Shown here piece by piece: positions 1 through 2,726 of a stretch of 38,400 nt of DNA. Source of the stretch: Hydrogenophaga sp. (lineage in GTDB: Bacteria > Pseudomonadota > Gammaproteobacteria > Burkholderiales > Burkholderiaceae_C). The stretch lies in contig DYIC01000006.1 of assembly GCA_020723845.1 (NCBI GenBank), positions 1 to 38,400 on the forward strand, read 5' to 3'. A program made the translations under genes and the position numbers. The notes beneath the pieces are model-generated. The model saw nothing but the letters and a program-made list of their open reading frames with translations. It was not told where the DNA came from and ran no database searches. How positions within the stretch are numbered: the stretch's first letter is position 1; the number at the start of each line of letters is the position of its first letter.

Positions 1-119
1 CGTACCGCGAAGCCCGGTCGGTCTGGTGGTTGCCCAGACTGGCTGGACAGCCTGCCGAGGCGGTTCTCCTCCTCCCTCCTCCTCCTGTTGGCTCGGCGGG
101 TGCTTCGCGGTACCTTTTT
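1..119 (+). ncRNA. Candidate small RNA, three-way junction with CCUCC-repeat loop
   Basis: Positions 2-13 (GTACCGCGAAGC) pair perfectly with 102-113. Inside, 14-26 pairs with 34-46 (13 pairs, three of them G-U), and 50-59 pairs with 92-101 (10 pairs, two G-U). Only three bases (47-49) remain unpaired at the junction, so this is a compact three-way junction. The G-U pairs work only if the plus strand is transcribed; on the other strand they are A-C mismatches. The 3' stem is followed by TTTTT at 115-119, like an intrinsic terminator. The third hairpin has a 32-nt loop (60-91) with a 21-nt pure pyrimidine run at 66-86 holding five overlapping CCTCC words, complementary to Shine-Dalgarno sequences. 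It converges on the transferase gene next door. No ORF fits. The promoter would lie outside the window. I do not recognise the family; regulation of translation through the loop is an inference. Confidence 0.6.
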
Positions 120-126
120 ATTGACC

Positions 127-750
127 TCAAGTCGGCGGTAGCGTGTCCGCAAAACTGGGCCGCTGTTGCAGCTTTTCGTGCAAGCGTGCCAAGTTGGGGT
201 ACGTGCTGCGCCAGTCGATGGCGGGGAAGCGAAAGTCCAGATACCCCAGTGCGACGCCGACGGCGATGTCGGCCAGACTCAAGTGGATGCCGTGGCAGTG
301 GGGGCGGTCACCCAGCCCCAGGCTCATGGCTTTGAGTGCGCGCTGGATTTTCTCCAGCTGGCGGTCGATCCAGGCCTGACAGCGCTGGTGGTCGGCGCGT
401 TGCGGCCAGACCTGCTCCATGCGCGCGGTGATGGCAGCGTCCAGCAACCCGTCAGCCAGGGCCTCCCAAGTCTTGACCTCGGCGCGCTCGCGCCCCGTGG
501 CGGGGATCAGCTTGCCCACCGGCGACAGGGTATCCAGATACTCGACGATCACGCGCGAGTCGAACACCGCCTCGCCGCCTTCCATGACCAGGCACGGCAC
601 CTTGCCCAGGGGATTGGCGTCCGTGACCGTGGTGTCCGGGGCCCACGGGTCGGCCAGCTCGAACTGGCAGTCGAGCTTTTTCTCGGCCATGACGATGCGG
701 ACCTTGCGCACGTAGGGGCTGGTGAGGCTGCCGATGAGTTTGAGCTTCAT
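127..750 (-). CDS. Glutathione S-transferase family protein
   Basis: A 207-residue cytosolic glutathione transferase-like protein. The N-terminal thioredoxin-like domain (about 1-78) has SLTSPYVRK (8-16; Ser11 at the usual position of the catalytic Ser/Cys), NPLGKVPCL (46-54, with the cis-proline) and DSRVIVEYL (64-72, glutathione gamma-glutamyl contact at Ser65). The all-helical C-terminal domain carries SLADIAVGVALGYLDFR (158-174), containing the S-x-x-D capping box typical of the fold. The start at 750 is chosen because MKLKLIGS begins the first beta strand; the reading frame extends to 873 but that part has no family resemblance. No strong Shine-Dalgarno is visible. It is divergent from purB with a shared symmetrical promoter region. 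The substrate cannot be told from sequence; detoxification or a stress role is the family expectation. Confidence 0.9.
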   Translation of the reverse strand: MKLKLIGSLTSPYVRKVRIVMAEKKLDCQFELADPWAPDTTVTDANPLGKVPCLVMEGGEAVFDSRVIVEYLDTLSPVGKLIPATGRERAEVKTWEALADGLLDAAITARMEQVWPQRADHQRCQAWIDRQLEKIQRALKAMSLGLGDRPHCHGIHLSLADIAVGVALGYLDFRFPAIDWRSTYPNLARLHEKLQQRPSFADTLPPT

Positions 751-780
751 GACGTCGTTGGGTTGACACTGGGTGGGGAG

Positions 781-2726
<1,946 letters not shown>

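Follow-up and report, generated by a model that had tools for sequence, protein, structure and literature searches.

According to the available part of PMC10783764, CCUCC is the core of the anti-Shine-Dalgarno (anti-SD) sequence of 16S rRNA. CCUCC-like stretches are exposed in several described groups of bacterial small RNAs. In Rhodobacter, the CCUCCUCCC motif of CcsR1-4 (RF02791) is left unpaired within a hairpin loop. As described in the accessible portions of two studies, the four RNAs are co-transcribed with ccaF1 from an RpoHI/RpoHII promoter (PMC10253847) and act in the response to singlet oxygen, with RSP_1090/91 and cfaS among the genes of its RpoE regulon (PMC7074977). In Neisseria, NmsRA and NmsRB are tandem siblings under stringent-response control, and the anti-SD stretches of NmsRA are needed to repress most of the tested targets (PMC5362039, available part). 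NgncR_162/163 are grouped with these siblings. A third group, the Betaproteobacteria toxic small RNAs (RF02278; the double-hairpin RNAs ncS03/05/27/62 of Burkholderia), is marked by UCUCCUCC/CCUCCUCC stretches along with a hairpin resembling a terminator. The accessible text of PMC5688073 describes RNAs of 57-92 nt with two hairpins side by side, a CU-rich part predicted to lie over ribosome sites, and an effect on growth upon overexpression. Finally, the RpoE-dependent small RNAs MicA, RybB, and MicL form the repression arm of an envelope stress response (PMC8103513, in part).

The RNA studied here lies at the very start of the window, i.e., the whole stretch of DNA analyzed, which opens contig C16 of a 118-contig assembly and runs for 38,400 bases; anything upstream of base 1 is unreadable. 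It shares the unpaired loop motif of CcsR (window 64-86), the exposed anti-SD stretches of NmsRA/NmsRB, and the pyrimidine stretches and terminator-like hairpin of the RF02278 RNAs, and its relatives have an RpoE-type promoter box as do MicA, RybB, and MicL, which presumably differ from it in both sequence and structure. Compared to CcsR, it is found as one match per genome, folds into a three-way junction, and is preceded in relatives by a GGAAC box. The NmsR siblings differ as a tandem pair under stringent-response control, and the RF02278 RNAs differ in size and hairpin arrangement. RF02278 RNAs occur in the same genomes as this RNA but at other loci.

The first-pass annotation, made from the letters of the window, had not recognized the fold and had likened the RNA to CcsR and the Neisseria siblings. 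None of the 4227 Rfam models reached its cut-off in the window, and no Rfam match was found at the RNA in 13 relatives' loci at E values up to 1. The CcsR1 model scored 10.7 bits on the window, below its gathering cut-off of 65.3 (E 5.8), and RF02278 matched neither the window nor the 13 relatives' loci. Kinship with NmsR/NgncR was probed by searching 399 genomes of the order with a covariance model of this RNA (R1), which gave no convincing match outside the host family. Thus, the comparison survives as a likeness in action rather than as demonstrated membership in these families: by analogy, the RNA probably works like CcsR, NmsR, and the RF02278 double-hairpin RNAs. Among the open-licence papers listed in literature searches, none names this RNA in its title or at the start of its abstract, which does not prove the RNA unpublished. 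Beyond the first-pass annotation, the present analysis adds an ECF/RpoE-type box upstream of the RNA in relatives, two kinds of genomic context, and the wide spread of the family. The reading that we consider probable is that of a trans-acting, single-copy small RNA, driven by an RpoE-type ECF sigma factor, which masks Shine-Dalgarno (SD) sites under stress. If right, this lineage would have an RNA branch in an ECF stress response.

Some minor matches arose in these searches. A SorX match (E 0.55) was found in L005, away from the RNA. In the window's own genome, RF02278 matched below its cut-off of 50 at C78:104116-104175 and C58:4826-4896 (42.2 and 30 bits). As judged from sequence, Tepidimonas may harbor a divergent second family of CCUCC-loop small RNAs resembling RF02278.

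Fold of the RNA and distribution of the family

The features of the RNA and its adjoining genes are listed in Table 1. The minimum free energy (MFE) of the window RNA is -65.1 kcal/mol compared to -45.6 +/- 3.5 kcal/mol in 200 dinucleotide shuffles (z -5.6), none of which was as low. The first-pass annotation had described three stems of 12, 13, and 10 bp around a junction with three unpaired bases, followed by a U-tract. The MFE fold of the window returns all three stems, with the arms of P1 fully complementary, the U-tract behind the closing stem, and positions 47-49 as the only unpaired bases of the junction. As a general trait, the three-base junction did not hold, since 67 of 96 relatives carry a GNAAYC linker ahead of P3, which the window lacks. 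The pyrimidine run is unpaired and has five overlapping CCTCC words as first described, but it measures 23 nt rather than 21; no other pyrimidine or purine run in the window is as long, the next being two of 15 nt.

Table 1. Coordinates in the window of the RNA, its parts, and the genes beside it
Feature	Position	Strand	Evidence
Small RNA core, P1 to U-tract	1..120	+	R1 covariance model, 115.3 bits (the window sequence is itself one of the 14 used to build R1); fold z -5.6
P1 closing stem, 5' arm	2..13	+	Inverted repeat 2-13/102-113, 12 bp, 100% complementary
P1 closing stem, 3' arm	102..113	+	MFE fold, inverted repeat, covariation
SL1 hairpin	14..46	+	MFE fold; 14-26/34-46, 13 bp, plus one inner pair
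P3 hairpin, presenting the pyrimidine loop	50..101	+	MFE fold; 50-59/92-101, 10 bp, plus 61-63/88-90
Unpaired pyrimidine run with anti-SD repeats	64..86	+	23 nt, five overlapping CCTCC words
U-tract 3' of P1	115..119	+	Sequence; three T columns there invariant in the 14 A1 rows
Glutathione S-transferase (GST) gene, convergent with the RNA	127..756	-	Pfam GST_N/GST_C
Adenylosuccinate lyase gene (purB)	862..2316	+	Pfam Lyase_1 and ASL_C

In the modeled fold, the 3' arm of P1 would double as a terminator stem, and the terminator-like U-tract is a possible Hfq-binding 3' end. The window's own genome encodes Hfq above the TIGR02383 cut-off.

Blastn found the RNA in all 10 congeners searched and, more weakly, in five other genera of the host family; a further weak match, L017, came from another family, was judged to be due to chance, and was left out. 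The alignment A1 contains 14 of the 17 sequences L002-L018, omitting L017, L009 (its printed stretch is that of L008), and L011 (cut by a contig end). R1 was built from these 14 sequences with a structure of P1 and P3 only. In a family-wide search with stricter filters, in which the best nine candidates per genome were scored, R1 matched 282 of 399 host-family genomes (about 70%) with one match in each, corresponding to 257 of the 350 good genomes and 106 of 141 genera. The remaining 117 genomes gave no match. When 16 of these and five genomes of other families were searched with laxer filters, three of the 21 gave a match at E values of at most 1, the best being E 0.05 (21.8 bits), and by their scores these three are not convincing.

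A search of 399 genomes sampled across the order matched 13, namely 11 of the 12 host-family genomes listed and two genomes of another family. The latter two, L246 and L247 (25.6 bits), have neither the CCUCC run nor the U-tract and look coding-like by eye; they were excluded from the promoter, context, and loop counts and account for one of the 97 distinct rows in the covariation alignment. The sample of the order thus yielded no convincing R1 match outside the host family. The RNA is also present in Polaromonas (seven records) and at one Rhodoferax locus. The family, unmatched by any Rfam model, therefore looks confined to a single family of the Burkholderiales and to one copy per genome. 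A phage or plasmid origin was also considered and was rejected, as no match was found.

Counts over relatives refer to 96 loci, of which 95 have distinct cores (L096 and L167 are identical in core and enter the counts separately); the loci are not independent, as several genera contribute two or more. An earlier set of 87 loci lacks L158, L161, L172, L175, L203, L191, L194, L087, and L088, which the recount at 96 restores, and the picture is unchanged between the two. The 87 loci together with the window make up the set of 88 sequences used for free folding and for the loop.

Structural conservation on the plus strand

The first-pass annotation had proposed a covariance search among relatives, with a lack of compensatory changes as the outcome that would speak against the RNA. 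Compensatory changes were found in 21 of the 24 modeled pairs, compared to 12.4 in shuffles. The alignment behind this count (A2) has 99 rows, 97 of them distinct, including the false L246/L247 pair as one. Because A2 was aligned to the P1/P3 structure, its counts lean towards that structure, and the shuffles ignore relatedness. With this qualification, 87.8% of the A2 cells are paired compared to 79.3% in shuffles, 220 cells carry double changes compared to 45, and the covariation score is 0.346 compared to 0.190; none of 500 shuffles reached the observed value of any of these measures. When the pairing partners were slid by one to three columns, at most 10 pairs showed double changes, in 23-72 cells.

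Both modeled helices contribute. P1 is 97.5% paired over the 97 distinct rows. Double changes occur in 12 of the 13 modeled pairs of P3, in which 78.3% of cells are paired and the two outermost modeled pairs do not form in 81 and 76 rows, respectively. In free folding of the 88 sequences, P1 formed with at least seven pairs in every case, P3 formed in 80, and P1, SL1, and P3 came together as the complete junction in 78. SL1, which lies outside the R1 structure, is variable in sequence across relatives. The shortest member, L241, has a core of 87 nt and a predicted fold that lacks SL1, and this hairpin may be dispensable, as L241 may show.

The choice of strand, made at first from the G-U pairs, was borne out: among 96 distinct aligned rows with the false ones removed, there are 221 G-U cells and 13 A-C cells, which identifies the plus strand as the RNA. 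The structure of the RNA is under selection on this strand. These results bear on the notion that the locus is a strong bidirectional terminator or a DNA repeat with no regulatory role. Such an element would be in keeping with the stem and U-tract and with the convergent gene that follows in the window, but it would account neither for the asymmetry between G-U and A-C cells nor for covariation in P3, which is separate from the terminator stem. Considering also the single match per genome, the conserved loop, and the promoter-like box upstream, we regard this notion as extremely improbable.

Promoter-like box and genomic neighborhood

The contig starts one base ahead of P1, which indicates that the assembly broke at this structured RNA. 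The promoter region of the window copy is therefore out of sight, and the promoter and context counts exclude this copy. E. coli RpoE recognizes the -35 box GGAACTT and depends on a C within the -10 element, according to the available part of PMC8103513. Among the relatives, GGAAC[T/C] is found within 130 nt upstream of P1 at 86 of 96 loci (10 lack this -35 box), and the motif GGAAC[TC]-N15-18-TC, with the spacing of ECF/RpoE promoters, at 80 (16 lack it). Controls were run on 87 of the 96 loci. The box alone was found at 78 of these, compared to a mean of 6.1 and a maximum of 11 in 50 rounds of shuffling, one downstream, and three far upstream. The combined motif was found at 72, compared to a mean of 1.4 and a maximum of 4 in shuffles, none downstream, and one far upstream. 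The distance between the -35 box and TC is 17 in 46 loci, 16 in 24, and 15 in one, and the fullest form, GGAACTT-N15-18-TCnnA, occurs at 18 of 87 loci against 0.02 expected. Of ten control loci of RF02278, one of which is out of register, one has the box. Relatives (80 of 96 by the looser motif) thus carry what is expected of an RpoE-dependent small RNA, a -35 box resembling GGAACTT and, at 16-17 nt, a TC -10 element; both are unseen for the window copy.

The -35 box starts a median of 67 nt ahead of P1 (range 24-118). From this position, transcription would begin about 30 nt before P1 and stop at P1 and the U-tract, the closing stem of the junction also serving as the terminator, which predicts an RNA of about 140-150 nt rather than the 115 nt or so first suggested.

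An RpoE-type ECF sigma factor would drive this transcription, and an RpoE protein scoring above the TIGR02939 cut-off is encoded in the window's own genome. In 15 genomes, this one included, GGAAC[TC] was absent within 400 nt upstream of rpoE; there is thus no sign of RpoE autoregulation at such a box, and a different ECF sigma factor could be responsible. The strict pattern GGGAACTT-N16/17-TC gave eight matches in three genomes compared to 53 of a reversed-pattern control and thus revealed no wider regulon.

The RNA resides in two genomic contexts. In the first, a gene for an FAD/amine oxidoreductase follows directly downstream on the same strand (56 of 96 loci; 51 of 87), with DUF1365 and then a CfaS/CMAS methyltransferase behind it at most loci with enough sequence. 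In the second, as in the window, a convergent GST gene lies downstream (36 of 96; 33 of 87); purB is downstream at 35 of 96 (32 of 87). The FAD gene and GST never occur together (0 of 96), and four loci have neither (three of 87). Upstream, there are often a glutathione peroxidase, a MerR regulator with a B12-binding_2 domain, and a weakly matched desaturase-like gene, the neighbor families being named from one representative each. By its domain make-up, the MerR protein appears LitR/CarH-like, with a B12-binding match below the cut-off.

The first context raises the alternative that the RNA acts in cis, as a leader or attenuator for the FAD-oxidoreductase/DUF1365/CfaS operon, in which the ECF promoter would drive the operon and the junction terminator would set the read-through. 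The position of the oxidoreductase gene just past the terminator at 56 loci is what such a leader would require. At the 36 loci of the second context and in the window, however, the next gene is convergent, leaving nothing on the same strand for a leader to serve, and still the structure and the loop are kept; the RNA is therefore not simply a leader, and its convergent setting supports action in trans. Furthermore, seven of the 33 GST-type loci retain the peroxidase and MerR/B12 genes while the FAD operon is absent from the adjoining sequence examined, which means that the RNA persists where the operon is missing, and an attenuator would presumably need no loop of CCUCC repeats. We consider the leader very unlikely. 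The seven loci suggest that the operon has been gained or lost beside a fixed RNA gene.

The seven loci (L171, L205, L192, L218, L229, L197, and L198) have MerR/B12 and peroxidase genes upstream and GST-purB downstream. A histidine kinase encoded upstream in seven GST-type loci has no close ortholog in the window's own genome (best identity 32%), so the missing upstream side of the window was not located by this means.

For the trans-acting RNA, the neighbors suggest a physiological setting. The FAD-oxidoreductase/DUF1365/CfaS genes are similar to the cfaS and RSP_1090/91 set of the Rhodobacter singlet-oxygen response, in which we take RSP_1090/91 to be the DUF1365 protein and the FAD oxidoreductase. 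The LitR region of Pseudomonas mendocina likewise contains an FAD oxidoreductase together with the furan-fatty-acid synthase UfaM (PMC9758184, in the part available). These parallels suggest photooxidative stress as a setting, but no such cluster adjoins the RNA at the Tepidimonas loci examined, and the signal itself is conjectural. If right, this would be a second case of a CCUCC-loop RNA tied to a singlet-oxygen/fatty-acid gene set of the Rhodobacter type.

CCUCC loop and candidate targets

The CCUCC-repeat loop noted at first in the window is conserved in relatives. The longest pyrimidine run measures 13-31 nt across the 88 sequences and contains 2-6 CCTCC words in each, with a mean of 4.16 compared to 1.16 in letter-shuffled runs; by eye, loops differ in length by CUCC-like units. 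In sequence, the loop is the anti-SD word in repeated registers. The promoter-like element points to the likely regulator, and the loop suggests the likely action: it matches ribosome start sites on messages, and protein production would probably be turned down under stress. In the mechanism that we favor, the fold leaves one long single-stranded loop offering the 16S anti-SD word in several registers. This loop would pair with ribosome-binding sites of the GGAGG type, probably with Hfq on the U-tract, and block binding of the 30S subunit, which would lower the translation of a set of messages in envelope or photooxidative stress.

A different use of the same loop would be as a sponge that titrates a pyrimidine-binding protein or ribosomes instead of pairing with messages. 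An avidity ligand might have such a long pyrimidine loop, in which repeated words vary in number. However, the repeated word is specifically the anti-SD core, enriched over shuffles of the same composition, and one match per genome would be unusual for a sponge. In addition, no gene for a DUF1127 protein, the partner of the CcsR type, was found among the 16 neighbor proteins scanned. We consider a sponge unlikely.

The favored mechanism of SD masking has a bolder form, which we put forward tentatively and with some doubt. The RNA may act as a "decoy 16S tail", i.e., a lineage-wide, ECF-sigma-driven RNA, one per genome, that carries several anti-SD registers on a self-terminating three-way junction and broadly damps translation in envelope or photooxidative stress. 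If so, it would be a betaproteobacterial counterpart, by convergence, of two separate arms, the RpoE-dependent small RNAs and CcsR.

Candidate targets were sought in two ways. First, the start regions of porin genes were paired with the loop. Start regions were obtained from 27 of 30 loci, the own-genome porin not being among them, and with one loop sequence used for all and no background set, 22 of the 27 duplexes fell between -6.9 and -13.3 kcal/mol and five between -14.2 and -33.4 kcal/mol. Two start regions stood out, those of L285 (-33.4 kcal/mol) and of L281, from a Tepidimonas genome (-20.2 kcal/mol). Second, the pattern GGAGGAGG-ATG gave 33 matches in three genomes compared to five in the control. 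The 21 open frames recovered from 30 such loci form no coherent set, and one gene is common to two Tepidimonas genomes. In these (L325 and L330), the GGAGGAGG site stands near position 1514, before the ATG of the recurring gene, which we take to be mraY-like and which is a possible target of the RNA.
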